Assembly: GCF_000425125.1 (NCBI RefSeq)
Contig: NZ_KE384307.1
Coordinates: forward strand, 796,966-860,965
Reading direction: 5' to 3'
DNA: 64,000 nucleotides
From: Paenibacillus taiwanensis DSM 18679
GTDB lineage: Bacteria; Bacillota; Bacilli; Paenibacillales; Paenibacillaceae
Shown here: piece by piece, positions 10,956 through 58,075 of the stretch
Layout of the letters: every line of letters begins with the position of its first letter
Position numbering within the stretch: position 1 is the first letter of the stretch
Notes under the pieces: model-generated
What the model was told of the DNA's origin: nothing
Database searches by the model: none
What the model saw: the letters and a program-made list of their open reading frames with translations, nothing else
Program-made: the position numbers and the translations under genes

Positions 10956-12692
10956 ATGGCAAACAAATATAAGGTAGAGCCAATCGGCGGACCACCAAGT
11001 GACGTAGAGGAACTAAAAAAGGAGAGCAACTATTTACGAGGCTCGTTGACTGAATCACTCTCCAATCGGATCACTGGCGGCTTGCCGGAGTTGGACAATC
11101 GACTGCTTAAATTCCACGGCAGTTATATGCAGGATGATCGCGACTACCGCAACGAGCGGCAGAAGCAGAAGCTAGAGCCGTATTTTCAGTTTATGCTTCG
11201 TGTAGTTACACCAGGAGGTGTATCTACACCGGCACAATGGCTCGTTATGGATGAATTGGCTGATAAATACGGCACGGGCAGTATCCGTTTGACAACACGG
11301 CAAGCATTTCAGCTGCATGGTGTATTAAAATGGAATTTGAAAAAAACGATCCAAGAAATCAATGAAGCGCTGCTCACTACGCTTGCTGCTTGTGGTGACG
11401 TCAGCCGTAACGTCATGTGCAATCCGAACCCTTACCAATCGGACATTCACAGCGAGATTTATTACTGGGCGCAGCAGTTAACTTCCCATTTGGCTCCTAA
11501 AACACCTGCTTACCATGAAATTTGGCTGGACGAGGAGAAGATTGTAGATAGCCTGGAAACTAACGATGAAGCCGTTGAGGTAGAACCGATTTACGGGCCT
11601 GTCTACTTGCCGCGAAAGTTTAAGATCGGTATTGCGGTGCCTCCCTCCAATGACGTCGACATTTATTCACAGGATCTAGGGTTTATCGCCATTGTGGAAG
11701 ACGGTAAGCTGGTTGGCTTTAACGTTAGTGTTGGCGGTGGCATGGGCATGACACATGGTGATACGGCTACGTATCCGCAGCTTGCCCGCGTTATTGGCTT
11801 TGTCACGGCTGATCGCATTTTGGAGCTGGCAGAGAAGGTCGTTACGATCCAACGTGATTATGGTAATCGCTCTGTGCGGAAAAATGCACGCTTCAAATAT
11901 ACGATTGATCGGCACGGTCTGGACTGGTTTGTGAGCGAATTGCATGATCGATTAGGCTGGGAGCTGGCACCTGCCCGCACGTTTAAGTTTGATCATACAG
12001 GGGACCGCTACGGCTGGATTAAAGGCAAAGACAATCGATGGAACTTGACGCTGTACATTCAAAGCGGCCGTATCGTAGATACTGAAGGTTACAAGCTTAG
12101 AACGGCGTTGCGTGAAATTGCCAAAATACACACCGGCGATTTCCGGCTGACAGCGAATCAGAACTTGGTTATTGCGAACGTAACTAGTCAGAAAAAGACA
12201 GCAATTGTGGCTTTATTGAAGGAGTATAGTATTACAGAGGGCGCTCAATATTCAGCGCTGCGTCGAAGCTCGTTATCCTGTGTAGCACTGCCGACTTGCG
12301 GTTTGGCAATGGCAGAGGCAGAGCGTTATTTACCATCGCTAATCGATAAGCTAGAGCCGATCCTTGAGCAAGCAGGTTTGCGTGATGAAGAGATTAACAT
12401 TCGTATGACAGGCTGTCCGAATGGCTGCGCGCGCCCTGCTTTAGGAGAGATTGCCTTTATCGGCAAATCGCCTGGCAAGTATAACATGTATATGGGAGCA
12501 GGCTTCTCCGGTGATCGTATGAGCAAGTTATATCGGGAAAATATCGGAGAAGATGAAATCGTTGATACGTTAAAACCGATCATTAATCATTATGCGGCTG
12601 AGCGCAGCCAAGGCGAGCACTTTGGCGACTTTGTCATCCGTGCCGGCTATGTAAAACCGGTAACGGACGGCACAAATTTTCACGATGCTTAA
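10956..12692 (+). CDS. cysI: Sulfite reductase hemoprotein subunit (CysI)
   Basis: A 578-residue siroheme/[4Fe-4S] subunit that reduces sulfite to sulfide in the cytoplasm. The cluster ligands are C442 and C448 in [10 protein letters not shown] and C487 and C491 in [10 protein letters not shown], with the spacing seen in E. coli CysI. ATG 10956 is preferred over ATG 10932 because AAAGGAG (10939-10945) lies between them. It is co-transcribed with cysJ and a strong hairpin follows. Confidence 0.96.
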
Positions 12693-12706
12693 TTCAGCTT
12701 TACCCG

Positions 12707-12745
12707 AAATGGCGGTGCAGGAGTTGTTCCTGTGCCGCCATTTTG
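12707..12745 (+). terminator. Terminator of cysJI
   Basis: AAATGGCGG-x-CAGGA pairs with TCCTG-x-CCGCCATTT, followed by a short T run. Confidence 0.8.
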
Positions 12746-12792
12746 CGGTGTTTGTAGAGTTCACAGCTTCAACACTTAACTTTAATTGCCTG

Positions 12793-12807
12793 TGAGAATG
12801 ATTATCA
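12793..12807. promoter_or_regulatory. Fur box upstream of the AraC regulator
   Basis: TGAGAATGATTATCA matches the 7-1-7 Fur consensus TGATAATNATTATCA at all but one defined position. It lies just before the regulator gene, so iron control of that gene is likely. Confidence 0.8.
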
Positions 12808-12886
12808 ACTATAATGAGGAGACATGTTAAATGACATAAGTAGAGTAGGACTAGGTGATGATTTTGATCGGGGTGAACATAAAGGT

Positions 12887-14878
12887 ATGCAATTAAATGA
12901 TCACATCGTGCTTTGGAATCATGTGTTTATAAAAGTAATGGATGTACGTCACGAGACTTTGTCTAGAGATAAAGAATTACGAAATTATCGGCTGCCGACC
13001 AGTGCATTTTTGTATTCCATACGTGGAAATGCCCAGATTTGGCTGGACCAGCTCGTGCACAACGTATCACGATTTCATGTGCTGCACGGTGGAAAGGGGA
13101 TGTGCTTAAACATCGTCGTGGAGGATGAGCTCGAATATTATATCGTTCTGTATAAGGCAATTCTTGCTTTGCCCACCACAAGGGACATTCAACAACTGCT
13201 GGAGAGTGAAAATCCATTTCAAAGCCAATATGCTTTTGCACCACATCAACCATTATCCTTATATGATAAAGTAGAGCTGTTAGAGCAACAATGGCGTCAG
13301 TCAACGGGATTGGGGAACATTCATGTTAAAGCTTTGCTCTATCAGTTTGTGTACGAGTTATTAGCACAGCTTCATTCTCAAGGGATTCAGCCCCTTAAGC
13401 CGGACTTAATGGCGCAAGCAGCTGCTTACATGCGCGAGCACTACAGTCAGCCCCTTACATTGGAGTCCATTGCAGAACAATTGGGATGCAGTGCAGGCCA
13501 CCTGTCCCGAACGTTTAAGAAACATATGCATACGAGCCCGATCCATTTTCTCGGTCAAGTTCGCGCCGAAAGAACGATGCAACTGCTAATGCAAACAGAT
13601 GCGACATTGCAGGAAATTGCGGAGTGGGTAGGTTATCCGGATGCGCATTCATTAAGCCGCAGTTTCAAAAAGTACATCGGATTATCTCCCGTTCGTTATA
13701 AAAAAGAACGTTTGAAACAGCCTTGGAATCAAGATTTGCCCATGACCCTGCTAACATCTGCCGTTCAACAGAAGCCGTCTCGACTTTATAATGATATTGA
13801 TTATCAATATCATTATAGTACGAGAGGAGATATACACATGCAAGGCAGAATTAGAGTAACGGCAATGACGGTGATGCTCTGCTTATCGTTGCTGCTGACA
13901 GCATGTTCAGCACAAGTCAATCCAACAGGAGGCACGCAAGCGGAAGCGAACCAAACGACGGCTCCTGCTGCTAGTGAGAAGTCAAATGGTGATGGACAAG
14001 CTGGCGTGCAAGCCAAAACAAGAACGATTTCGACGCTAAAAGGGGATGTGGAAATACCAGCAGAACCAAAGCGGGTAGTTTCGGATCAGTATATGGGTCA
14101 TTTGTTAAAGCTGGGTGTTATTCCTGTCGGCGTTAGAAGCTTTATGCTTAGTGAGGCATGGATAGAGAAAGCGGGCATTTCCAAAGATATCATTGCAGGA
14201 ATTGAGGATCTGGGCGGTTTTCCCATGAATTTAGAAAAATTAACGTATTTGGAGCCTGACTTAATTATAGGTTCGATAGAAAAAAATATTGAGGATTACC
14301 AGAAGATTGGGAAGACGGTGTTCCTTCCTTATTGGGAAGGTCTTTCTACGGCTGGACCGTTAGAGAAATTCCGCCGAATCAGTGAAATTTTCGGAAAAGA
14401 ACAACAAGCTGAGCAGTGGATAATGGAATACAAGCAAAATGTAGAAACAGCCAAAAAGAAAATTGCGGGGATTATAAAGGAAGGTGAAACGGTTTCTATC
14501 GTACAAGTAGCTAACAAAAATTTGTACGTATTAGCGGCGGAGGGCGGCAACTATGGTAGTTCAACCATCTATGAGATGCTGGGGCTCCCCCCTACGAAAA
14601 AAGCGTTAGAAATGAAAGAAGGTTTTGAGAGCATATCACTGGAAGTGCTGCCAGAGTATACAGGCGATCATATATTTGTATATGGTTCCCATGATGAGGG
14701 GGCGAACGAGGTGTTAAATAGCGGTATATGGAAGGGGATTCCTGCCGTGAAGAAGGGCAACATCTATATGTACGGTTCATTTGACGATAAAGGCGATGAA
14801 TTTGTAATGGAAGATCCTTATTCGCTTGAGCTTCAGTTGGATTCGATTGTAAACTTATTGTTAGCTAAAAAGAAATAA
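12887..14878 (+). CDS. AraC-type regulator reading in frame into a siderophore-binding lipoprotein
   Basis: One uninterrupted frame joins two proteins. The first about 300 residues are a YbbB/Btr-like AraC regulator: an N-terminal sensing domain (MQLNDHIVLWNH...), then two helix-turn-helix motifs (TLESIAEQLGCSAGHLSRTF and TLQEIAEWVGYPDAHSLSRS). The rest, from ATG 13838, is a FecB/FhuD-like binding protein with its own lipoprotein signal. Translated whole from ATG 12887 it has 663 residues; ATG 12824 adds 21 but has GAGGAG only 2 bases away. Btr-type regulators carrying a FecB-like sensor domain are known, but they lack an internal secretion signal. Either this is a true fusion or a stop between two genes has been lost. 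Iron and siderophore control is indicated by two Fur boxes. Confidence 0.75.
   Translation: MQLNDHIVLWNHVFIKVMDVRHETLSRDKELRNYRLPTSAFLYSIRGNAQIWLDQLVHNVSRFHVLHGGKGMCLNIVVEDELEYYIVLYKAILALPTTRDIQQLLESENPFQSQYAFAPHQPLSLYDKVELLEQQWRQSTGLGNIHVKALLYQFVYELLAQLHSQGIQPLKPDLMAQAAAYMREHYSQPLTLESIAEQLGCSAGHLSRTFKKHMHTSPIHFLGQVRAERTMQLLMQTDATLQEIAEWVGYPDAHSLSRSFKKYIGLSPVRYKKERLKQPWNQDLPMTLLTSAVQQKPSRLYNDIDYQYHYSTRGDIHMQGRIRVTAMTVMLCLSLLLTACSAQVNPTGGTQAEANQTTAPAASEKSNGDGQAGVQAKTRTISTLKGDVEIPAEPKRVVSDQYMGHLLKLGVIPVGVRSFMLSEAWIEKAGISKDIIAGIEDLGGFPMNLEKLTYLEPDLIIGSIEKNIEDYQKIGKTVFLPYWEGLSTAGPLEKFRRISEIFGKEQQAEQWIMEYKQNVETAKKKIAGIIKEGETVSIVQVANKNLYVLAAEGGNYGSSTIYEMLGLPPTKKALEMKEGFESISLEVLPEYTGDHIFVYGSHDEGANEVLNSGIWKGIPAVKKGNIYMYGSFDDKGDEFVMEDPYSLELQLDSIVNLLLAKKK
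13787..13817. promoter_or_regulatory. 31-bp perfect palindrome, overlapping Fur boxes inside the reading frame
   Basis: Bases 13787-13801 are the exact reverse complement of 13803-13817, around T13802. The stretch contains TGATATTGATTATCA (13792-13806), one mismatch from the Fur 7-1-7 consensus, and the mirror copy on the other strand. Its first six bases are TATAAT. It lies 20 bp before the internal ATG 13838 of the lipoprotein, exactly where the operator of an independent gene would be. Confidence 0.85.
13838..14878 (+). CDS. Iron-siderophore ABC transporter substrate-binding lipoprotein (internal start)
   Basis: A 346-residue protein if translated from ATG 13838, which follows GAGAGGAG at good spacing. 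It has a classic lipoprotein signal with lipobox LLTAC near residue 27, a low-complexity tether, then a FecB/FhuD-type type III binding fold (PKRVVSDQYMGHLLKLGVIPVG..., LEPDLIIGS, ENPYSLE-like ending). It would bind a ferric siderophore at the membrane surface for an FhuB/G-type permease not present here. It shares its frame with the AraC gene above, with no stop in between. The strong internal ribosome site, signal peptide and Fur palindrome argue it is made as a separate protein. Confidence 0.8.
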   Translation: MQGRIRVTAMTVMLCLSLLLTACSAQVNPTGGTQAEANQTTAPAASEKSNGDGQAGVQAKTRTISTLKGDVEIPAEPKRVVSDQYMGHLLKLGVIPVGVRSFMLSEAWIEKAGISKDIIAGIEDLGGFPMNLEKLTYLEPDLIIGSIEKNIEDYQKIGKTVFLPYWEGLSTAGPLEKFRRISEIFGKEQQAEQWIMEYKQNVETAKKKIAGIIKEGETVSIVQVANKNLYVLAAEGGNYGSSTIYEMLGLPPTKKALEMKEGFESISLEVLPEYTGDHIFVYGSHDEGANEVLNSGIWKGIPAVKKGNIYMYGSFDDKGDEFVMEDPYSLELQLDSIVNLLLAKKK

Positions 14879-45720: not shown

Positions 45721-45748
45721 AAAAGACCGGGAGATCCGGTCTTTTTTT
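45721..45748 (+). terminator. Terminator of the SufR-like gene
   Basis: AAAGACCGG, loop, CCGGTCTTT and a T run. Confidence 0.9.
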
Positions 45749-45881
45749 GCATTTTGCGGAAAAGGTATTGAAATAAAATTTTATATTAAATATAATAAAA
45801 CCGTAATTAAATTTCATTTATGCTGCATATACATGATTCAAATTTAAAAAACGAGAGTAGACTTCATTTGATTAGGGGGAG

Positions 45882-46847
45882 ATGATCGTGAACGTTATTC
45901 CATTGGAAGCCACATGGATCTCTCAGATAGGTGAACTATGGAATCAGGAGCTTGGGGATCGGTTTCCGCTGCGTGAGGCGCTGCTGCGGCAGAACAGCTT
46001 TCAAGATAAGAACGTGTATAATCCTGCATCTTGGCTTGCGCACGATGATGACGGTACGTTAATCGGCTTTGTCATTGCGAAAAAGTGGCAGGAATTAGAG
46101 CGGGAGATGCAGCTAGGCGAAGGCGCGGGATGGATTCAAGCTATTGTCGTGCGATCAGAGGCGAGAGGGCAAGGAATCGGCAGCCGGTTGTTGTCCTTGG
46201 CGGAAGAAGCATTACGAAAGTCGGGGGTACGGTTAGTCTATATGGGACGCGACCCGTGGCATTATTTTCCGGGAGTTCCGAAAGCGCTGTCATCCAGTCG
46301 GGAGTGGTGTGAACATAAAGGCTATGAGCAGTTGTATGAAGTGTTTGATTTACTTGCCACGCGAGAAGCGGATAACACGATGGACTCACCTCGTTTTGAA
46401 GGCGCTTACGTCAGGCTGCTGGAACAGGAAGACCAAGCTGAAATGCTTCGTTTTTTTCGTAGATGCTTCCCAGGCAGGTGGTATTATGAGGCGTTACATT
46501 ACTGGGAGCGTGGCGGAACGGGCAGAGAATTTATGGCGTTATTTGCAGATCAGGAGATGATCGGCTTCTGTCGGGTCAACGATGAGCATGCCCCCCTAAT
46601 TGCCCAGAATACGTATTGGGCGCCCCTTTTTGCAGAGCCACTTGGCGGCATTGGGCCTTTGGGAGTAGATGACCGTTATCGGGGGAGAGGGTATGGACTT
46701 GGGTTAGTTCAAGCCGGCATGAAGGAGCTTGAGGCTCGCGGAATGAAGCATCTCATTATTGATTGGACGGAGTTGGTAGATTTCTATGCGAAGTTAGGAT
46801 TTCGGAAGTGGAAAGGCTACGATTTAATGAAAAAGGAGCTGTTGTAA
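45882..46847 (+). CDS. GNAT acetyltransferase with two GNAT domains
   Basis: A 321-residue protein from ATG 45882 (GTG 45888 possible) after GGGGGAG. The first GNAT domain has the acetyl-CoA loop RSEARGQGIGSRLL near residue 90. The second has DDRYRGRGYGLGLV near residue 268. The acetylated substrate is unknown. It precedes the MurNAc salvage operon by 147 bp, but a hairpin (TTAGGC/GCCTAA, 46849-46866) and the gap suggest separate transcription. Confidence 0.88.
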   Translation: MIVNVIPLEATWISQIGELWNQELGDRFPLREALLRQNSFQDKNVYNPASWLAHDDDGTLIGFVIAKKWQELEREMQLGEGAGWIQAIVVRSEARGQGIGSRLLSLAEEALRKSGVRLVYMGRDPWHYFPGVPKALSSSREWCEHKGYEQLYEVFDLLATREADNTMDSPRFEGAYVRLLEQEDQAEMLRFFRRCFPGRWYYEALHYWERGGTGREFMALFADQEMIGFCRVNDEHAPLIAQNTYWAPLFAEPLGGIGPLGVDDRYRGRGYGLGLVQAGMKELEARGMKHLIIDWTELVDFYAKLGFRKWKGYDLMKKELL

Positions 46848-46994
46848 TTAGGCAGTTCGCGGCCTAAGTGAAATACACAGAGAGACGTTAAGTTTCGCTG
46901 CTGTAACGCTGCGTTATAAGTATAAACTGAAATTTTGTATCCATATATTAAGTAAATTAGTGAAATTAAATATCATTTTTATGGGGGTATTCAC

Positions 46995-48329
46995 ATGACA
47001 CAATTACGAAAAATGTTGCTTCTGACCGTCACGTTAATATTAGCCTGCTCCGTCATATTGGCAGGGTGCGGTTCAAGTTCGGAAACAAGTACAGGTAAGG
47101 ATAGCGGCAAGGTGGAAATATCTTGGCTTGTCACCTCTAATCCGGCTAAACAACCTTGGTATGAACAAACCGTGAAAGACTTTGAAGCGACGCATCCAAA
47201 CATTAAAGTCAAATTGATGACATTTCCATATGCACAAATCGATCAGAAGATCCAGACGATGATCTCCGGCAAAAACATGGCGGATGTGTGGTCTGCCAAC
47301 TGGAGCGAGGCAGGGTTTGCCACATTTAATCAACTGGGCGTATTGCTGGATATGACACCTTACATGGAGAAAGAGCCTGATGTGGTCAAAGGGATTAACC
47401 CACGCTTGTTAGATATTTATAAGGTGGATGGAAAAACATATGGGATGCCGATGTTAAACTATGGAACGTTTTTGTTCTACAACAAAGATTTGTTAGATCA
47501 GGCAGGTGTAGCCTATCCGACAACAGATTGGGAGGACACTTCTTGGAACTGGGATCGGATGGTCGAGTACGGGCTGAAGCTGACGGATAAGGGCAAGCAG
47601 CAGTACGGTTTGCTTTATGATGAAACGGCGAACAAACGAGCATGGTTGTTTGGTGGAGACTTCTTTAGTGAAGACGCTTACAAGACGGGTAAAATGGGGG
47701 AGCCACAGCTTCTGAACAATCCGAAAAATGCGGAAGCGATCCAAAAAAATGCCGAGCTTGTTTTAAAGCATAAAATTTCGCCTAACCCGTCTCAGACAGA
47801 GGCGATGACCCAACTGGGCAATCCGTTTATGACCGGAAAAGTTGCCATGATGATTAGCGGCGGTTGGGGTTTCCAGAACTTTAAAAAAGCAGAATTCCGC
47901 TGGGGTGCGGCAGCACTGCCTAATATAGAAGGTCGCCAGATCCCGCTGTATGTAGATCCGTGGAACATATATAAGCATACGAAACATCCAGAGGAAGCTT
48001 GGACGTTTGTAAAATACTTGATGGACCCGAAAGGCGCTGCCAAGGCATATGCCGAGAATACAGGTGCAACACCTGTTTTTGACGAACTGTTGACCAATTG
48101 GTATGCAGATACGGCTAAAGCGATGGACATGAAGCCAGAACAAGTAAAGCAATTAAACGAAGGTGTCGTGAAGTATGGGCGTGAGTCCGATAACCATCTG
48201 ATCGCCAAGTTTGACAGCATTTTGAAGACAACCAATCAGACGATGAGTGCGGTGTACAACGGCACAAAAAGTGTTGAAGATGGTCTTAAAGATATAGACA
48301 AAAACTTGCGTTCATTAAATTTGGAGTGA
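46995..48329 (+). CDS. Sugar ABC transporter binding lipoprotein (MurNAc/muropeptide sugar predicted)
   Basis: A 444-residue SBP_bac_1 family protein with lipoprotein signal (lipobox ILAGC, C25). Typical features: the WYEQTVKDFEATHPNIKVKL opening, GKTYGMPMLNYGTFLFYNKDLLDQAGV, and GGWGFQNFKKAEF. It anchors outside the membrane and delivers a sugar to the two permeases downstream. Context (NamZ, MurK, MurQ, MurR in the same direction) predicts a MurNAc-containing glycoside; this is inference. ATG 46995 follows GGGGGTATT. Confidence 0.92.
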   Translation: MTQLRKMLLLTVTLILACSVILAGCGSSSETSTGKDSGKVEISWLVTSNPAKQPWYEQTVKDFEATHPNIKVKLMTFPYAQIDQKIQTMISGKNMADVWSANWSEAGFATFNQLGVLLDMTPYMEKEPDVVKGINPRLLDIYKVDGKTYGMPMLNYGTFLFYNKDLLDQAGVAYPTTDWEDTSWNWDRMVEYGLKLTDKGKQQYGLLYDETANKRAWLFGGDFFSEDAYKTGKMGEPQLLNNPKNAEAIQKNAELVLKHKISPNPSQTEAMTQLGNPFMTGKVAMMISGGWGFQNFKKAEFRWGAAALPNIEGRQIPLYVDPWNIYKHTKHPEEAWTFVKYLMDPKGAAKAYAENTGATPVFDELLTNWYADTAKAMDMKPEQVKQLNEGVVKYGRESDNHLIAKFDSILKTTNQTMSAVYNGTKSVEDGLKDIDKNLRSLNLE

Positions 48330-48436
48330 GGGCTGCCCGCCGCTTCTTTGATCTTTGCACATATTGTAAGACGAATCGGGCTAATTGGCAGGCTACGGAT
48401 GAGTCCGCTGTCTTATCTAAGATGAGGTGAATTCTA

Positions 48437-49399
48437 TTGCATACCCAACAACAAGCGGCGTCTGAAAATAGCTCGATGATGACTGGCCGCAAGACAAAGA
48501 TGAAAGTTCACCCTGAGCGTAAAAAGGAAGAACGAGCCTTCTGGATATTCGCTTCACCGTGGATTATCGGTTTTATTTTATTTACGGGAGGACCGATGGT
48601 CGCTTCCTTATGGCTCAGCTTTACAAATTATGATGTAGTTAGCTCGCCAAGATTTACAGGCTTGGATAACTTTATTTCCTTGTTCCAGGACACTTTGTTC
48701 TTTAAGTCGCTAAGTGTAACGACTTATTACGTGGTGCTGGCTGTGCCGTTTACGATCGTCTTATCGCTGCTGCTGGCCGTGCTTCTGAATCAGAAAATTA
48801 AAGGGCTGTTTATATTTAGGACGTTGTTTTATGCGCCTTCAATCGTATCAGGGGTATCGATTGCGTTTTTGTGGTCGTGGCTGCTGAATCCGGACTTTGG
48901 TTTTGTCAACAATGTATTACACGAATGGTTCGGATTAGCTGGCCTAGGTTGGTTTACCGATGCGAAGCTGGTTGTGCCTTCGATGGTGCTGATGCAGCTA
49001 ACGAGTTTAGGGGGCACGATGGTTATTTTTCTAGCTAGTTTGCAATCGCTGCCCAAAGATTTGTACGAAGCGGCAGATATAGATGGCGCGGGCAGCTTTC
49101 GCAAATTTTTTAACATTACGATGCCTCTAATTTCGCCTGTTATTTTATTTAATACGATTATGGCTATTATTTCATCGTTCCAAATTTTCACACAAGCTTA
49201 CGTCATTACGAAAGGTGGACCGGAGTGGAATTCCTATTTTTACGTCTACTACTTATTTGACACGGCATTCTCGCAATTCCGCATGGGATACGCATCTGCA
49301 CAGGCATGGATTTTATTTTTACTTATTTTTGCATTGACGATGCTGTCGCTAACGCTGTCCAAACGATATGTCCACTACGAATATACGAGCCGAAAATAA
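48437..49399 (+). CDS. Sugar ABC transporter permease (MalF/UgpA type)
   Basis: A 320-residue permease with six membrane spans and the EAA motif LYEAADIDGAGSFRKFFNITMP. TTG 48437 follows GAGGTGA at good spacing. The short N-terminal polar extension is normal. Second gene of the salvage operon. Confidence 0.93.
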   Translation: MHTQQQAASENSSMMTGRKTKMKVHPERKKEERAFWIFASPWIIGFILFTGGPMVASLWLSFTNYDVVSSPRFTGLDNFISLFQDTLFFKSLSVTTYYVVLAVPFTIVLSLLLAVLLNQKIKGLFIFRTLFYAPSIVSGVSIAFLWSWLLNPDFGFVNNVLHEWFGLAGLGWFTDAKLVVPSMVLMQLTSLGGTMVIFLASLQSLPKDLYEAADIDGAGSFRKFFNITMPLISPVILFNTIMAIISSFQIFTQAYVITKGGPEWNSYFYVYYLFDTAFSQFRMGYASAQAWILFLLIFALTMLSLTLSKRYVHYEYTSRK

Positions 49400-49411
49400 G
49401 GAGGGCAGCTA

Positions 49412-50266
49412 ATGAAGCCGAAACGATATGTTCATGGGGAGCTGTCCCTGACGCAAAAAGCGGTAATATACGGCGTGTTGTTTTTGTTTATAGGATTATT
49501 TTTATTCCCGATTTTTTGGATGGCCTCCACTTCTTTAAAGACACTGGGACAAGTGTTTCAATTGCCGATGGTCTGGGTTCCTAGTGCACCGCAATGGAGC
49601 AATTACGTCGAAGTGTTCCGAGTTTCGCCGTTTGGGACTTATATGTGGAATACGATTTGGTATACAGGTATTACTGTATTTGCAACGGTGCTAACGTCTG
49701 CTTTTGTTGCTTTTGCCTTTGCACGCTTGCGAGCTCGCGGCAGCAAGCTGATGTTCGGACTTGTGCTTAGCACGATGATGCTGCCGCCACAAGTCGTGAT
49801 GATTCCACAATACTTATTGTTTAACAAGTTAGGGTGGGTGGATTCTTATTTGCCGCTTGTCGTCCCTGCGTTTACCGCGAGCGCATTTCTCATCTTCCTG
49901 CTGCGCCAGTTTTATATGGGCATATCGCATGAGTTGGATGAAGCGGTGAAGATTGACGGCGGCAGCTACTTTACGATGTTTTTCCGTGTTATTTTGCCAT
50001 TGTCATTACCAGCACTTGCTACAGGTGCCATTTTGGAGTTTATGTACCGTTGGAATGATTTAATGGGGCCGCTGATTTATTTGAATAGTACGGAGCATTA
50101 TCCATTGTCGCTTGGACTGGCGAATTTTACAGCCTCCTATGGCTCGACCCCTTGGCAATTGCTTATGGCAGCTTCCATTATTGCGGTGACACCGCCGCTC
50201 TTGTTGTTCTTTTTTGCGCAGAAGCACTTTATACGGGGGATTGTCATTTCAGGTTCCAAAGGCTAA
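49412..50266 (+). CDS. Sugar ABC transporter permease (MalG/UgpE type)
   Basis: A 284-residue permease with six spans and the EAA motif ELDEAVKIDGGSYFTMFFRVI. AAGGAGGGC precedes ATG 49412, 12 bp after the partner. No ATPase gene is present, so a shared MsmX-type ATPase encoded elsewhere probably powers the transporter. Confidence 0.93.
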   Translation: MKPKRYVHGELSLTQKAVIYGVLFLFIGLFLFPIFWMASTSLKTLGQVFQLPMVWVPSAPQWSNYVEVFRVSPFGTYMWNTIWYTGITVFATVLTSAFVAFAFARLRARGSKLMFGLVLSTMMLPPQVVMIPQYLLFNKLGWVDSYLPLVVPAFTASAFLIFLLRQFYMGISHELDEAVKIDGGSYFTMFFRVILPLSLPALATGAILEFMYRWNDLMGPLIYLNSTEHYPLSLGLANFTASYGSTPWQLLMAASIIAVTPPLLLFFFAQKHFIRGIVISGSKG

Positions 50267-50318
50267 GGAAAGTGTAAGGTTCCTGCTGCTGATGTTTTCA
50301 GAGGAGGTAAACGGAGAA

Positions 50319-51461
50319 ATGGGTCTAAAATTAGGCGTGGAGGTATTTTTACAACAGTATGCTGAATTGTATCGAGGAAAGCGTATCGGACTAGTTACGA
50401 ATTTGACTGGGGTTAACTATAGGCTGATCCCTACGATTGATCTGTTTCATAAACATGAGCACCTTCACCTAACAGCTCTATACGGACCTGAACACGGGAT
50501 CAGGGGGGATGCCAAGGAAGGAGAAGCGGTCAGTTCCTCCATTGATAATGTGACGGGCTTGCCTGTGTATAGTTTGTATGGAGAAACACGCAAGCCAACT
50601 CCAGAAATGCTGCGTGATATTGAGGTGATCTTTTTTGATCTGCAAGATATCGGTTCTCGTTATTATACTTATATTTACACGATGGCATATGTAATGGAAG
50701 CCTGTGGGGAGTTAGGCATTCCGTTTGTGGTGCTGGATCGTCCCAATCCGATTAACGGGACTATAAGGGAAGGGAATCTCGTTGCGGAGGCGTGCAGATC
50801 GTTTGTAGGCCTATATCCGATTCCGGTCCGGCATGGTTTGACGATTGGTGAATTGGCCCAACTGTTTGTGCATCAATTTGGTGTACGGTGCGAACTAACC
50901 GTAATCCCGATGCAGGGGTGGTACCGACATATGCATTTTGACGAGACAGGGTTGTTGTGGGTTCCGCCCTCCCCGAATGCAAGCGGGCTTGATATGGCCC
51001 TGCTTTATCCAGGCACGTGTCTGATGGAGGGAACAAACCTGTCTGAAGGACGTGGCACGGCTAAACCGTTTGAGATGGTGGGTGCACCTTTTATAGACGG
51101 CTACAACTTGGCGAGAGTGCTGAATGAACGGCGGATGCCAGGTGTCATTGCCCGCCCAGTCTCGTTTGTGCCTACCTATCAAAAATATAACGGAGAGCGA
51201 TGTGAAGGTGTTCAGCTCCATGTGACGGATCGCAAAGTGCTGCGTGCATTTGTAGTCGGATTGCAGCTTCTGGAAACTGTGGCGGCGATGTATCCACAAT
51301 CGTTTTGCTACAAGGAAATGGAACATTTTCATCAATTGGCGGGTGATCGCGAGCTGAAGAAGCAGATTCAACAGGGAACGGCTGTTACTTATGCAGAACG
51401 TTACGAATCCGATTTAGACGCATTCAGTAAGGATTCCAACGCCTATTTATTATATAGCTAG
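50319..51461 (+). CDS. namZ: NamZ-type exo-beta-N-acetylmuramidase (DUF1343), no signal peptide
   Basis: A 380-residue DUF1343 protein. ATG 50319 follows GAGGAGG (11 bp) and CGGAG; the upstream frame overlaps the permease. Family motifs: LVTNLTG, LYGPEHGIRG with the conserved PEHG, FDLQDIGSRYYTYIYT, LDRPNPI and EGTNLSEGRGT. NamZ (YbbC) removes MurNAc from the non-reducing end of MurNAc-GlcNAc chains. The B. subtilis enzyme is secreted, but this one starts MGLKLGVEVFLQQYAE with no signal or membrane segment, so it should act in the cytoplasm on an imported glycoside. Confidence 0.88.
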   Translation: MGLKLGVEVFLQQYAELYRGKRIGLVTNLTGVNYRLIPTIDLFHKHEHLHLTALYGPEHGIRGDAKEGEAVSSSIDNVTGLPVYSLYGETRKPTPEMLRDIEVIFFDLQDIGSRYYTYIYTMAYVMEACGELGIPFVVLDRPNPINGTIREGNLVAEACRSFVGLYPIPVRHGLTIGELAQLFVHQFGVRCELTVIPMQGWYRHMHFDETGLLWVPPSPNASGLDMALLYPGTCLMEGTNLSEGRGTAKPFEMVGAPFIDGYNLARVLNERRMPGVIARPVSFVPTYQKYNGERCEGVQLHVTDRKVLRAFVVGLQLLETVAAMYPQSFCYKEMEHFHQLAGDRELKKQIQQGTAVTYAERYESDLDAFSKDSNAYLLYS

Positions 51462-51531
51462 CGCTTGGGGAAGTTGTTAGTTCCGTTGATACGTTAAAGT
51501 TGAAGCGCCAAATAAGAGAGGGGATTGTGTC

Positions 51532-52581
51532 ATGGCCATTTTAGCGATTGATGGAGGTGGGACCAAGACACTTGGTGTGCTCGTGCGGCGAGATGGCACT
51601 GTGTTGTCTGCTGTGCAATGTGGGCCATCGAATATAAATGGCGACTGTGTTCGTGCATTTCAGGTTTTGACAGACGTTGTATCTAGTCTTTGTGATGTGG
51701 CAAAGCAATGTGGTGAACGGGTAGAGGTGTTGTTTGCAGGCTTGGCAGGTATCGAGCAAGGAAATAACCGAGAGCAAGTGACAATTCATCTCCAGCAGTT
51801 CTGTCAACAGGGCCTGTTGCCGAGGGAAGCCAATATCGTAGTCGATAATGATGCGGTGACTGCTCTGTATTCCGGCACGTTAGGAGGACCGGGGATCGTA
51901 CAAATTGCAGGCACTGGCTCGATTACTTATGGTGTACATGCGAATGGAAGGAGAGAAAGAGTGGGGGGCTGGGGATACATTATCGGTGATGCAGGCAGTG
52001 GTTATGCGATTGGTAGGGCGGGGTTAGCTGCTGTCTTTCGAGCTTGGGATGGGCTAGCTGCACCAACGGTGCTCATGCCTATGCTGCAACAATGTTACGG
52101 GCTGCATACCATAACGGACTTGATCCCGATGATCTATACCGAGAGTGCTCGCCAACAAGTAGCTGCGGTGGCTCCACTTGTGCTGGAAGCGGCTGATGTG
52201 GGTGATAAAGCTGCGCTCGAGATCGTTAAGGAGGCTGCCCAGGATATGGGGCAGGCGATTACAGCGTTGTATAAAAAAGGAGATGGCGGCCCCTCACCTT
52301 TGTTAAGCGAGTCGGGTGAGCTGAACGTGCCGAACAAGCCGAACGATACCATACAAGTTGTACTGACGGGTGGTGTGTTCCAGCGAGCGGCCTTGCTGCT
52401 GCCTACCATCAAGGACATATGCAGCGCTGCGGGCATGCCTGCGCAATTTCATGTCCCTGATTGCCCACCAGTAGCAGGAGCTGTATTTGCTGGCTTGCGC
52501 TGCTTGAACATTCCTCTTCCTGCTCAACTATGTTCGTGGATAAGTGAGCAATTGGCAGCAATGACCGTACAGCGAGTGTAA
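51532..52581 (+). CDS. BadF-type amino-sugar kinase, MurK-like
   Basis: A 349-residue ASKHA-fold kinase: AIDGGGTKTLGVLV, DNDAV, QIAGTGSITYGVHANG, GGWGYIIGDAGSGYAIG, and VLTGGVF for adenosine. AGAGAGGGG precedes ATG 51532. Placed between NamZ and MurQ, it best fits MurK, the GlcNAc/MurNAc kinase known from Clostridium, forming MurNAc-6-P for MurQ. Specificity is inferred from context. It carries about 25 extra residues near 265-290 compared with the BadF-type kinase at 40428. Confidence 0.88.
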   Translation: MAILAIDGGGTKTLGVLVRRDGTVLSAVQCGPSNINGDCVRAFQVLTDVVSSLCDVAKQCGERVEVLFAGLAGIEQGNNREQVTIHLQQFCQQGLLPREANIVVDNDAVTALYSGTLGGPGIVQIAGTGSITYGVHANGRRERVGGWGYIIGDAGSGYAIGRAGLAAVFRAWDGLAAPTVLMPMLQQCYGLHTITDLIPMIYTESARQQVAAVAPLVLEAADVGDKAALEIVKEAAQDMGQAITALYKKGDGGPSPLLSESGELNVPNKPNDTIQVVLTGGVFQRAALLLPTIKDICSAAGMPAQFHVPDCPPVAGAVFAGLRCLNIPLPAQLCSWISEQLAAMTVQRV

Positions 52582-52762
52582 GTACAACAAAGTGGACGCG
52601 AATGCAGCAAGCCATACAGGTTGGACAGTAGCAAATTTATGTAAAACAGCGTCAGCAGAACAATAATTTAATGGGCGTGTAACAACGGATTATCGACAGT
52701 GTGATGATTGTGCAGTAATAAGTAACAGGTTCAGAAATATACAGCGGATAGGTTGTGAGGAT

Positions 52763-53665
52763 ATGGATACGAACATTTCGGCTTTATTAACGGAACAGCG
52801 CAATCCACGTACGATGACTATCGACCAAATGAGTACACATGATATCGTCAGCGTGATTCATCAAGAAGATCGTTCAGTTATGGAGGCGGTCTATCGTGTG
52901 CTACCTCGTGTGGAAGAAGCAGTAGACTCTGTGTACGCATCTCTTAAAAAGGGGGGCCGCTTGTTTTACGTTGGTGCTGGCACAAGCGGTCGCTTAGGTT
53001 TTGTAGATGCCGCAGAATGCCCCCCGACATACAGTACACCGCCAGAACTGATTCAGGCGGTGATCGCAGGCGGCAGCGGGGCGGTATTTGCCGCGGTGGA
53101 AGGGGCAGAGGATAACGAGGCCCAAGGGGCAGCTGACCTACAGGAGCGCGGCTTAAACGCAGCGGATGTGGTCATTGGCATCGCAGCTAGCGGCCGAACC
53201 CCCTACGTAGTTGGAGCTATGCAATACGCGCAAGATCGAGGTGCTGCCACCGTATCGCTGACGTGTAATGACAGCTCAGCGATCAGCCGCTTTGCTGACG
53301 TTAAAATTGAAGTGCTGGTAGGGCCTGAAGTCGTAACAGGTTCTACAAGGATGAAAGCTGCCACTGCTCATAAAATGATACTGAATACGATCTCCACCTC
53401 TGTCATGATTAGACTAGGAAAAGTATATGAAAACTTGATGGTAGATCTGAACGCAAGCAACTACAAGTTGCAGGAACGCGCCCGCGGCATTGTTATGAGT
53501 ATTACGAACGTAGATTATGAAACCGCGTCATCTACGCTTGCTGTAGCAGATCAAGAAGTAAAAACCGCAATCGTTATGCTGGAGGCCGGATTAAGCGCCA
53601 AGGAAGCAAGAGAACGCCTTGAGCGCACTGGGGGCTTGGTGCGGCAAGCAATTCATTTACATTAA
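52763..53665 (+). CDS. murQ: N-acetylmuramic acid 6-phosphate etherase (MurQ)
   Basis: A 300-residue SIS-domain lyase that removes the lactyl ether from MurNAc-6-P, giving GlcNAc-6-P and D-lactate. Motifs: EQRNPRT near the N-terminus, YVGAGTSGRLG-x-VDAAECPPT with catalytic E85, VEGAEDNE, GIAASGRTPYV and GSTRMKAATAHKMILN. Gene order supports the assignment. It starts 181 bp after the kinase. Confidence 0.96.
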   Translation: MDTNISALLTEQRNPRTMTIDQMSTHDIVSVIHQEDRSVMEAVYRVLPRVEEAVDSVYASLKKGGRLFYVGAGTSGRLGFVDAAECPPTYSTPPELIQAVIAGGSGAVFAAVEGAEDNEAQGAADLQERGLNAADVVIGIAASGRTPYVVGAMQYAQDRGAATVSLTCNDSSAISRFADVKIEVLVGPEVVTGSTRMKAATAHKMILNTISTSVMIRLGKVYENLMVDLNASNYKLQERARGIVMSITNVDYETASSTLAVADQEVKTAIVMLEAGLSAKEARERLERTGGLVRQAIHLH

Positions 53666-53973
53666 TGGACTGACGGGAAATAACATCAAATTAATTCCGA
53701 CGTGTATGGCTTATTAACAGATGGAGGATTCTATCTTTATATCCAGCTTTGTGAGGACTTGAGAGTACGTATGTATGCTGGAAAGTAGTGCCCTTGTTAG
53801 AACATGTCCGTTGCGATTATGCTAGAACTACCCTTATCATAAAGCGTGGGTAAACCGTGTTATTGCTGTTCATGTTATTGCCGTTATAGTTAGAGGTAGT
53901 GCACATCATTTATAAATATAAACGCTTATATAATGGAGTCCGTAGCGTGCAACAGTCCAAAGGAGGAATCCCT
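53666..53973. other. Intergenic stretch before the MurR-like gene
   Basis: No gene is seen. A TATAAT lies near 53930, and ATAAACGCTTATA just upstream is a symmetrical, cre-like core. A near-direct repeat (GTTATTGCTGTT / GTTATTGCCGTT) lies near 53858-53885. The MurR-like gene may thus have its own promoter. Confidence 0.4.
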
Positions 53974-54843
53974 ATGTACGTATCGCCGACTAAGGGCGGC
54001 TTGGTTATGCTGTCTGATATGCTGTCCAAGCTGCCTCCTTCGGAGAAAAAGATCGCGCAGTATATTCTTGAACACCCGCAAGAGGCGGTCTCTTTAACCG
54101 CGTCCGAGCTCGGAGAGAGGTGCAATGCGAGCAGTGCAGCTGTCATTCGCCTTTGCAAATCTCTTAAACTCAAAGGCTTTCAGGAGCTGAAGCTCCGCAT
54201 CGTAGGTGACTTAAATAAGTCAGAGCACGAAGGCTATCGGGATATTAAGCCAAATGAGAGCGTGGACGCTGTGTTGGAGAAGATGACCACAAACAGTATT
54301 CAGGCGCTAAGGGAAACGTCAGAGATTGTCAATCTGGCGGACATGGCAACCGTAGTGGATGTATTAATTCGTGCGCGCAACGTTCATTTCTTTGGAGTCG
54401 GGGCGTCCTCCATTATAGCGATGGATGCGCAGCAAAAGTTTCTACGGATTAACAAGCCAGCGACAGCGTTTACGGACGTGCATGTTGTGGCGATGAACAT
54501 TGCTAACATGACATCAGAAGATGTTGTATTTGGCATTTCTTACTCTGGAGAAACGTCAGAAGTGTATGATATTTTACAGCTTGCCAATCAGAAGGGGAGC
54601 CGTACTGTAAGTCTGACTCATTACGGTAATTCATTAATTGCATCAGCGGCGCAGCTTAATTTATTTATATCGGCTACTAAGGAAGCAACCTTCCGCAGCG
54701 CAGCGACTTCTTCTCGACTGGCCCAACTTCATATTATTGACGTGCTCTTTATGTGTGTTGCCTCGCATCAATACGACAAGACCGTTCAATATTTGGATCA
54801 AACAAGAGAAGCCATTCGGTTTATGAAAGAACAACGTTCTTAA
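53974..54843 (+). CDS. RpiR family regulator, MurR-like
   Basis: A 289-residue regulator. ATG 53974 follows AAAGGAGGAA. N-terminal helix-turn-helix (LTASELGERCNASSAAVIRL) and C-terminal SIS sugar-phosphate domain (HFFGVGASSIIAMDAQQKFL, GISYSGETSEVYDI). As in B. subtilis and E. coli, an RpiR protein beside murQ probably senses MurNAc-6-P and controls the salvage genes. The operator was not identified. Confidence 0.9.
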   Translation: MYVSPTKGGLVMLSDMLSKLPPSEKKIAQYILEHPQEAVSLTASELGERCNASSAAVIRLCKSLKLKGFQELKLRIVGDLNKSEHEGYRDIKPNESVDAVLEKMTTNSIQALRETSEIVNLADMATVVDVLIRARNVHFFGVGASSIIAMDAQQKFLRINKPATAFTDVHVVAMNIANMTSEDVVFGISYSGETSEVYDILQLANQKGSRTVSLTHYGNSLIASAAQLNLFISATKEATFRSAATSSRLAQLHIIDVLFMCVASHQYDKTVQYLDQTREAIRFMKEQRS

Positions 54844-55108
54844 CTAAATCACTTCCAACTACGGTATACCTTTTCTTCGGTTGAAGATGGAAATTTAATT
54901 CCACAGCCGCAGAAGGGGTATTTTGTTATGTCCTCATGCAACGACTATTAAGATTTCAATCTGACGAGATTGGCATGGATATAAAGGGCGAAGTCAAGCA
55001 TATGAAAAAAAATAAAGCTTCTGTGTGTCAAGACAAGCCCATTCTTCTTATACTGTCATTACGACATGGGCATTCGTCCTGATCGATGCTGAACTCAGGA
55101 GGTAGATC

Positions 55109-56212: not shown

Positions 56213-57730
56213 TCAGGAATGACGCTTCCACGTGCTCGGATCAATTTTGGTCGGATCAAGGCCTTCCCATATATTTTTAATGATGGCTTTGTCAGGGTGA
56301 TCAAATACAAGGAAGGCTGTTGGCAGCAGCCGCTCGCCGTACTGACTTGCAGGTGAGTTTACAAGCTTGCCACCCTCACCGACGAGTACGGTCGAAGAGC
56401 CGCCATCAAGATTGGCGGCGATGACAGCCCCGTGTTCCAGCATCAGCTGTTGGCAGTCATACAAGTTAGCGCCAATACTATGTGTCTGTCTTCCGTCTAT
56501 GACGAGAAACAGTACCGTTCCGTCCTCTTTTTGCCCAATCACAGTACGAGGAGCAATACCCCAGCCATCGGCGGCATTTTTGATTAACCCTTTGCCGTTC
56601 ACAATGATTCTAGGCTGAAAGCTGACAGCTTCCTTTACCCCGAGCTCTTCCATCTGGCTCACTGTATAATTGCCTGCTACCATTTTGCCCTCTTTATCAA
56701 AGCCGACGATTTGGGTCCGCTTATTTTTACCGATCCCGTTGTAGAAGAGCTTGCCATCTGCATAAACGATACCGATCGGCTGAAATCCATTCCCTTTCCA
56801 GTTTGGATCAGCAAATCCGCCCCCGTTAATACCAAATCGGGCTCCGGTCCGTTTAACCATCGTGGATACTTTTTCTCCCATGCCCATCTCATTTGTGACG
56901 GCTACCCGAATTGATTTAGGGTCTTGTATCGTAAGCAAGTAACCACTATATCCTTGTCCGCTAATTTCTTTTAGCTCCGTAAGCGGCTTGTCGTTTTTAG
57001 GTTGTGCTGGAGTTTTGATCAAATTTGTATTTGCTTGTTCGTCTCCCATTTGTTCAAATCGATTGTTGTACTGCTGGATTCTTCGATTCGTCTCTTTTTC
57101 CCCGATAATAAACTTGGCCCAGTGGCGATGCCGAGTCGTCAGCAGTGTATCAGCGATCATAAACCGGAACTGTTCACCTGATGGAGTAAACAGCAGCCAG
57201 CCTGCCCCGAACGTAATACATAACATAAAAATAGCCATCCAAACGCGGATAATTTTCCATATCGCACGTTTGCGTGCCCCTTTGCTCTTCTTTTTTTTCT
57301 GTTTCTGGTTGTCTGGAGCAGCAGGGGCAGGCATTTGTCTGCTTGACGATCGGTTGTCACTTCGTTGTCTTGTGACTCTCGGTGACGGAGAGTCCGGTGT
57401 GACGAGTCTACCATAATCATTGTTGACCGGCGTATTAAAGCTGCGTCCTCCTACTGCACGTCTGGCAGCATCATCGTGTGCAGCCGTTCTGTTTACAGGT
57501 CCTGTAACGGAACTAGCAGATGCGCTTGTTCGTAAAGGTTTATCGTTATGGCGAACAGCAGCGCTTCTTCGCGCAGGGGTGAATGCGGGACTAGAAGAAG
57601 TGTAGCTGCTTGGTGTACCTTGTACCGGTACAGCACGCTCGGGTGCAGGATCAGGCGGTGTATGCTTTAGCCTTCGTGGCGGGAGCTGTCTTGAAGCTGT
57701 TGGCTTTTGTGAATAATTTGGATTTCGCAT
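56213..57730 (-). CDS. Phosphodiester glycosidase-family (NAGPA/DUF2233) membrane-anchored protein
   Basis: A 505-residue protein. ATG 57730 follows AGAGGAAC, so ATG 57745 is less likely. Residues 1-150 are disordered, rich in Pro, Ser and Arg, and should lie in the cytoplasm. After a basic KKKKSKGARKR stretch comes one membrane span (about 163-183). The outer domain, from about 250, is a DUF2233 phosphodiester glycosidase (FGINGGGFADPNWKGNG, PRTVIGQKEDGTVLFLVIDG, AANLDGGSSTVLV). Family members uncover or trim glycan phosphodiesters; teichoic acid or exopolysaccharide substrates are plausible. Confidence 0.85.
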   Translation of the reverse strand: MRNPNYSQKPTASRQLPPRRLKHTPPDPAPERAVPVQGTPSSYTSSSPAFTPARRSAAVRHNDKPLRTSASASSVTGPVNRTAAHDDAARRAVGGRSFNTPVNNDYGRLVTPDSPSPRVTRQRSDNRSSSRQMPAPAAPDNQKQKKKKSKGARKRAIWKIIRVWMAIFMLCITFGAGWLLFTPSGEQFRFMIADTLLTTRHRHWAKFIIGEKETNRRIQQYNNRFEQMGDEQANTNLIKTPAQPKNDKPLTELKEISGQGYSGYLLTIQDPKSIRVAVTNEMGMGEKVSTMVKRTGARFGINGGGFADPNWKGNGFQPIGIVYADGKLFYNGIGKNKRTQIVGFDKEGKMVAGNYTVSQMEELGVKEAVSFQPRIIVNGKGLIKNAADGWGIAPRTVIGQKEDGTVLFLVIDGRQTHSIGANLYDCQQLMLEHGAVIAANLDGGSSTVLVGEGGKLVNSPASQYGERLLPTAFLVFDHPDKAIIKNIWEGLDPTKIDPSTWKRHS

Positions 57731-58075
57731 TGTAGTTCCTCTCATCCTATAAGGTTGATCTCACTTGCTCCATTTATGACTTCCAATTACGTTCATACGT
57801 TCATTGGTTCTCTCTCTAGTTGTGAAATAAAAAGCACCGTTTCAACTTGTCTTTCAATAATAACGCGTGAATCGGTAAAAAGTTGCTGGCAGGTTACGGA
57901 ATTGAACTTGCACGCCTTACCCGCAGCAGCATTACCTATACTTGAACCTTGTCTATATATCAGTTAGAATCGAGGTACGTTTTATCCTCGCTATACATAT
58001 GGTATTAAGTACGGAATACGTCATAACGAGTGTGATCCGGTCAGTCAAACAAGAGATGAAGGAAGCGGTGTTTTC
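57731..58075. other. Divergent intergenic region
   Basis: No gene is seen. It separates the leftward glycosidase-family gene from glutamate racemase and must hold both promoters. I could not place either with confidence. Confidence 0.4.

Follow-up and report, generated by a model that had tools for sequence, protein, structure and literature searches.

A putative peptidoglycan-sugar salvage operon with an ABC importer, a signal-less NamZ and a MurK-like kinase in Paenibacillus taiwanensis

Genes and predicted regulation of the operon

The window analysed here, a stretch of 64,000 nt from contig NZ_KE384307.1 of Paenibacillus taiwanensis DSM 18679, carries on its plus strand an operon of the form glmA-like/SBP/permease/permease/namZ/murK-like/murQ/rpiR (SBP, solute-binding protein), whose role, as read from its gene content, is quite probably the salvage of peptidoglycan sugars. 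With families assigned through Pfam and NCBIfam, seven of its genes (SBP, two CUT1-type permeases, NamZ, BadF kinase, MurQ, and RpiR) are uninterrupted, collinear open reading frames, all on the plus strand. A preliminary description of this DNA had listed the same seven genes in this order between 46995 and 54843, and all are intact, lie where it placed them and match the domain families that it gave. Two gene starts are corrected here, with NamZ beginning at ATG 50319 rather than TTG 50214 and RpiR at ATG 53974, and the first gene of the operon (45882–46847) had been overlooked.

This first gene encodes a two-domain acetyltransferase of the GNAT family (PF00583) and is followed by the SBP gene after 147 bases. 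Its best match among solved structures, at 3e-52 over residues 13 to 319 and thus over nearly the full length with both domains, is PDB 5kf1, which we take to be GlmA of Clostridium acetobutylicum and with which it shares an identity of about one third. GlmA re-acetylates peptidoglycan fragments that end in glucosamine, and the window protein is likewise predicted to N-acetylate glucosamine or glucosamine-ended saccharides.

The next three genes encode the parts of a CUT1 sugar importer of the ATP-binding cassette (ABC) type: a solute-binding lipoprotein with an LAGC lipobox (46995–48329; SBP_bac_1, 150 bits) and two BPD_transp_1 permeases of the UgpA/MalF (48437–49399) and UgpE/MalG type (49412–50266), whose UgpA-like and UgpE-like matches stay below the cut-off. 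They are followed by namZ (50319–51461), by a gene for a BadF-type sugar kinase (51532–52581; BcrAD_BadFG, 143 bits) that resembles the MurK kinases of N-acetylmuramic acid (MurNAc) and N-acetylglucosamine (GlcNAc), by the MurNAc-6-phosphate etherase gene murQ (52763–53665; equivalog TIGR00274, 411.5 bits against a cut-off of 302), and by rpiR (53974–54843), which encodes a 289-amino-acid RpiR/MurR-type regulator. Spacers measure 12 to 147 bases as far as the kinase gene, 181 bases before murQ and 308 bases before rpiR.

For comparison, we assembled 80 loci from other public genomes with 83 NamZ sequences, whose N-termini were inspected singly. Closely related operons lie at loci L002, L003, and L157 in three other genomes; the SBP shares 95% identity with its orthologue at L002 and 88% with that at L003, and the RpiR start is identical at L002. 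Where the window has its 308-base spacer (53666–53973), L002 (13346–15538) and L003 (13163–15298) hold a gene for a metallophosphoesterase-like protein of 711 to 730 amino acids between murQ and rpiR, which has the look of a gene loss in the window. At L003 (Paenibacillus apiarius MW-14), the MurQ of the operon is broken into two overlapping frames (12188–13101), and this strain has a second, intact MurQ (L167) near AnmK, an AmiE-like gene and another ABC importer.

Upstream of the operon, a hairpin resembling an intrinsic terminator (45721–45745, plus strand; 11-pair stem followed by TTTTTTT) closes the preceding unit. The predicted promoter, TTGAAA-17-TATAAT (45768–45796, plus strand), matches 11 of 12 positions and is the top site of the region, with both hexamers kept upstream of the GNAT orthologue at L002, L003, and L157. 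A GWAATWAAATTTYA-like motif occurs on either side of it and, as a third copy, before the SBP gene, each time on the plus strand. Candidate RpiR/MurR operator 1, GAAATAAAATTTTA (45770–45783), overlies the −35 hexamer and is kept at L002 and partly at L003 and L157; candidate operator 2, GTAATTAAATTTCA (45803–45816), lies directly downstream of the −10 hexamer and is identical at L002 and L003; and candidate operator 3, GAAATTAAATATCA (46962–46975), emerged as a genome-wide match to the 16-mer motif 20 to 33 bases before the SBP start, where L002 and L003 have a related TGAAAT sequence. Allowing up to one mismatch, the 16-mer matches six times in the 5.25-Mb genome and three of these matches fall in the salvage operon, of which only the third copy is independent support since the first two defined the motif. 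These conserved motifs suggest that the RpiR protein probably represses promoters before the glmA-like and SBP genes. The regulator itself fits the general RpiR family (HTH_6 and SIS) and reaches only 87.5 bits against a cut-off of 408 with the model of E. coli-type MurR (NF012026). Right after rpiR lies a palindrome, GGAAATTTAATTCC (54889–54903), that looks like the operator motif apart from two mismatches. Farther downstream, on the minus strand (56213–57745), lies a gene whose product has a NAGPA phosphodiester glycosidase domain.

NamZ, the kinase and the rest of the genome

NamZ enzymes take MurNAc off the non-reducing end. The window protein (380 amino acids) scores above the cut-off with both NamZ_N (285 bits) and NamZ_C (170 bits; GH171), matches PDB 4k05 over residues 3 to 379, and has its E58, within a PEHG motif, at the position of E92 of the Bacillus subtilis enzyme BsNamZ, presumably the catalytic glutamate there; a glutamate is kept at this site in at least 98% of the 83 NamZ sequences. 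By family, the window protein is an exo-beta-N-acetylmuramidase and predicted to release MurNAc from non-reducing ends. Because NamZ acts on MurNAc at this end, MurNAc-GlcNAc would suit it as a substrate while GlcNAc-MurNAc, which the preliminary description had also put forward for testing as a ligand of the binding protein, would not.

The preliminary description had further noted that NamZ lacks a signal peptide, and had named a true start farther upstream that adds one among the observations that would overturn its view. We looked for such a start and reject it. ATG 50319 has a GAGGAGG ribosome-binding site shortly upstream, the protein begins directly at its domain without a hydrophobic N-terminal segment, and the site of the alternative start TTG 50214 falls inside permease 2. 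Orthologues share the start position, and several of them have an in-frame stop 0 to 4 codons upstream of it, which makes an upstream signal peptide impossible in these orthologues. One apparent signal-bearing exception, L015, is due to an upstream open frame ahead of an ATG that has its own ribosome-binding site. By its sequence, the window NamZ is therefore a cytosolic protein, and a whole-genome search found no second NamZ besides it.

The kinase, modelled by AlphaFold2 with a mean predicted local distance difference test (pLDDT) score of 90, has MurK of C. acetobutylicum (PDB 8zo3; 29% identity) as its nearest solved relative. This protein comes first in a profile search (262 bits, next match 186 bits) and also first in a structure search (Z 31.8), there in a near tie with a Sulfolobus hexokinase (Z 30.8). 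The catalytic aspartate D107 is invariant; N106 precedes it and a GGWG loop is present, both features as in the C. acetobutylicum enzyme. The lactyl pocket of Tannerella forsythia MurK (S133-P134-L135 and T94; PMC10465942) is absent from the window kinase, and C. acetobutylicum MurK (cited in PMC5061867), which is also without this pocket, still uses MurNAc. Given the resemblance to C. acetobutylicum MurK, use of both MurNAc and GlcNAc is the natural prediction, and judging from its closest relatives the window kinase would phosphorylate MurNAc and probably GlcNAc as well.

The remaining genome matches a route that is independent of the phosphotransferase system (PTS), as had been proposed for this operon. 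The best candidate for the PTS protein MurP, at 29% identity, is TreP-like and lies beside treA and treR, the gene of a GntR regulator; searches of the genome gave no match for MupG (PF05913) and none for AnmK, and NagA is present in two copies. Another ABC operon of this genome (L088:1007–9616) comprises an NgcE-like SBP, a two-component system and a signal-less NagZ of 547 amino acids and perhaps serves chitobiose or GlcNAc-MurNAc. Elsewhere, the genome encodes a second NagZ-like protein that is membrane-anchored.

Conservation and the predicted pathway

Across the comparison set, the location of NamZ goes along with the type of transporter encoded beside it. Signal-less NamZ stands next to ABC permeases in 28 of 34 cases and never with MurP (0/34, L015 corrected), whereas signal-bearing NamZ is accompanied by MurP in 31 of 49 cases and adjoins ABC permeases in a single one (1/49). 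The majority of loci with a signal-less NamZ also hold a GNAT homologue with 38% to 49% identity to the window protein, and no PTS-type locus does. Within the genus, 16 of 19 genomes have one NamZ, and all 16 of these are signal-less and come with two permeases, kinase, MurQ, and RpiR in one of three layouts; among the three genomes lacking NamZ, two carry MurP-MurQ-RpiR and the third has no MurQ above the cut-off. In the NamZ tree, the signal-less sequences of Bacillales group together with good support and a clostridial pair stands apart. Annotating NamZ as secreted would be wrong for this entire clade.

Signal-less NagZ and AmiE are also a feature of the Bacillales ABC loci, many of which additionally hold AnmK and a UgpC-type ATPase. 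The fullest cytosolic gene set is found in Sporosarcina and relatives (L025, L038, L040, L047, L058, and L059), with kinase, GNAT, AmiE, NagZ, AnmK, SBP, two permeases, NamZ, MurQ, a second GNAT, RpiR, and UgpC-type ATPase, and two other loci (L042 and L065) have two NamZ genes each. The permeases that adjoin signal-less NamZ fall into at least six sets with less than 50% identity between them, indicating that this one cytosolic enzyme works with a range of importers. That the SBP and permeases of the window carry an unrelated sugar and adjoin the mur genes by chance is conceivable given that they belong to a very large family in which the closest named models (GanS, UgpA/UgpE) score far below their cut-offs and the best solved relative of the SBP is Lmo0181. 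We nevertheless regard this coincidence as very improbable, since the SBP-permease-permease-NamZ block is conserved at L002, L003, and L157, a rare motif is common to the GNAT and SBP promoters, and unrelated importers fill the same position in other genomes.

On balance, we lean toward the view that Bacillales have two alternative modes of salvage. The first would combine cutting outside the cell with PTS import of MurNAc; the second would combine import of fragments by exchangeable ABC importers with all-cytosolic cutting by NamZ, often together with NagZ and AmiE, GlmA-like re-acetylation and ATP-dependent phosphorylation. NamZ of the second mode forms a clade of its own, and the window operon would be a compact form of this mode.

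For the window operon itself, import of MurNAc-GlcNAc by the ABC transporter, cleavage by cytosolic NamZ, ATP-dependent phosphorylation, and conversion by MurQ in this order is the probable pathway. Extracellular amidases and an endo-N-acetylglucosaminidase would free peptide-less MurNAc-GlcNAc, which the SBP lipoprotein would bind and the two permeases would import whole, powered by a shared ATPase of the MsmX/UgpC type that is encoded elsewhere. In the cytosol, NamZ would release MurNAc from the disaccharide, and the MurK-like kinase would use ATP to phosphorylate MurNAc and probably the freed GlcNAc as well. MurQ would then turn MurNAc-6-phosphate into GlcNAc-6-phosphate and lactate, with NagA acting next, and the GlmA-like enzyme would put acetyl groups back on de-N-acetylated fragments to make them usable by NamZ and kinase. 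The preliminary description had arrived at the same core of disaccharide import, cytosolic NamZ, and kinase before MurQ, which fits the gene content, the signal-less NamZ, the MurP-free genome, and the conserved arrangement.

MurNAc-GlcNAc, imported whole, is probably the ligand. Kinase and MurQ would also suffice if the importer brought in free MurNAc (or GlcNAc) made outside by other enzymes, as with MurT-MurK-MurQ of T. forsythia (PMC10465942), and if NamZ trimmed traces or worked after lysis. However, this is unlikely because the genome has no second, secreted NamZ to produce free MurNAc and because a signal-less NamZ beside importers, as conserved across the genus and in the wider Bacillales, would be pointless if its substrate stayed outside. 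The neighborhood of signal-less AmiE and NagZ to NamZ in related Bacillales loci, together with the signal-less 547-amino-acid NagZ of the other ABC operon in P. taiwanensis, would in turn agree with uptake of larger fragments (MurNAc-peptide, MurNAc-GlcNAc-peptide, or short glycan strands) that are stripped by a cytosolic amidase, NagZ, and NamZ. We consider this decidedly unlikely for the window operon, which encodes no amidase: of the beta-lactamase-fold proteins in the genome, the eight best resemble cytosolic AmiE at just 24% to 31% and were rejected as candidates for this enzyme, and the NagZ gene has its own NgcE-like importer.

Several observations weigh against the proposed import and cytosolic cleavage of MurNAc-GlcNAc. 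None of the relatives of the SBP has a known ligand, the structure model of the SBP is poor (pLDDT 40), and the ligand, the enzyme activities, and the location of NamZ are predictions from sequence. The operon has no ATPase gene, so the ATPase must come from elsewhere; an MsmX/UgpC-type ATPase on another contig (C8:6192–7292; 476 bits against a cut-off of 432) is an orphan that adjoins no importer gene of the salvage operon, and we infer that it may be the shared energizer. As a source of MurNAc-GlcNAc, the genome search turned up a single GH73 glucosaminidase domain. In the NamZ tree, the signal-less state requires about two changes, and its association with ABC importers therefore does not represent many independent events; a test of signal against transporter on independent pairs had two pairs available and no power. 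Finally, L024 of Ammoniphilus sp. YIM 78166 is a mixed form in which ABC importer, kinase, and MurQ occur with signal-bearing NamZ, NagZ, and AmiE, and the location of these enzymes is thus not strictly dictated by the type of importer.

Relation to known salvage systems

MurNAc salvage of gram-positive bacteria has been described as PTS-based for B. subtilis (PMC5061867) and Staphylococcus aureus (PMC6262408). The B. subtilis cluster murQ-murR-murP-amiE-nagZ-ybbC(namZ) (PMC5061867), which has a close relative in our set (L051), likewise dedicates NamZ, MurQ, and an RpiR-type regulator to MurNAc salvage. It differs from the window operon by PTS import through MurP and by signal peptides on NamZ, NagZ, and AmiE, whereas the window has an ABC importer and a kinase instead of MurP as well as a cytosolic NamZ; the secreted NamZ and PTS protein MurP that the preliminary description had ascribed to B. 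subtilis agree with this cluster and its signal-bearing NamZ. If our reading is true, PTS-independent cytosolic cutting would explain MurNAc recycling in bacteria without MurP.

Similar to what we propose here, the MurP-MupG system of S. aureus (PMC6262408) imports MurNAc-GlcNAc whole and splits it in the cytosol before MurQ acts. There, phosphorylation occurs during PTS import and MupG splits MurNAc-6-phosphate-GlcNAc, while the P. taiwanensis genome is without MurP and MupG and the order would be reversed, with NamZ splitting first and the kinase phosphorylating second. The fate of the GlcNAc half has been called unclear for S. aureus (PMC6262408); in the window operon, one MurNAc/GlcNAc kinase would handle both halves of the disaccharide if the proposed pathway is true.

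The MurT-MurK-MurQ route of T. forsythia (PMC10465942, PMC7670621) is also PTS-independent and built on kinase and MurQ, yet its NamZ1/NamZ2 cut in the periplasm, MurT imports free MurNAc, and the MurK pocket differs from that of the window kinase. UspABC of Mycobacterium tuberculosis (PMC4929945), likewise an ABC importer, has been proposed to take up amino sugars derived from peptidoglycan; its affinities are weak and it has no operon with NamZ or MurQ. A literature search, provisional in that key papers on NamZ, MurK, and GlmA were outside its reach, found no account of an ABC importer of MurNAc with NamZ. S. aureus already imports first and splits afterwards, with MurP and MupG (PMC6262408), and T. 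forsythia already pairs a kinase with MurQ (PMC10465942). What appears to be new, for now, is an ABC importer with cytosolic NamZ cutting of the unphosphorylated disaccharide, combined with kinase and MurQ.

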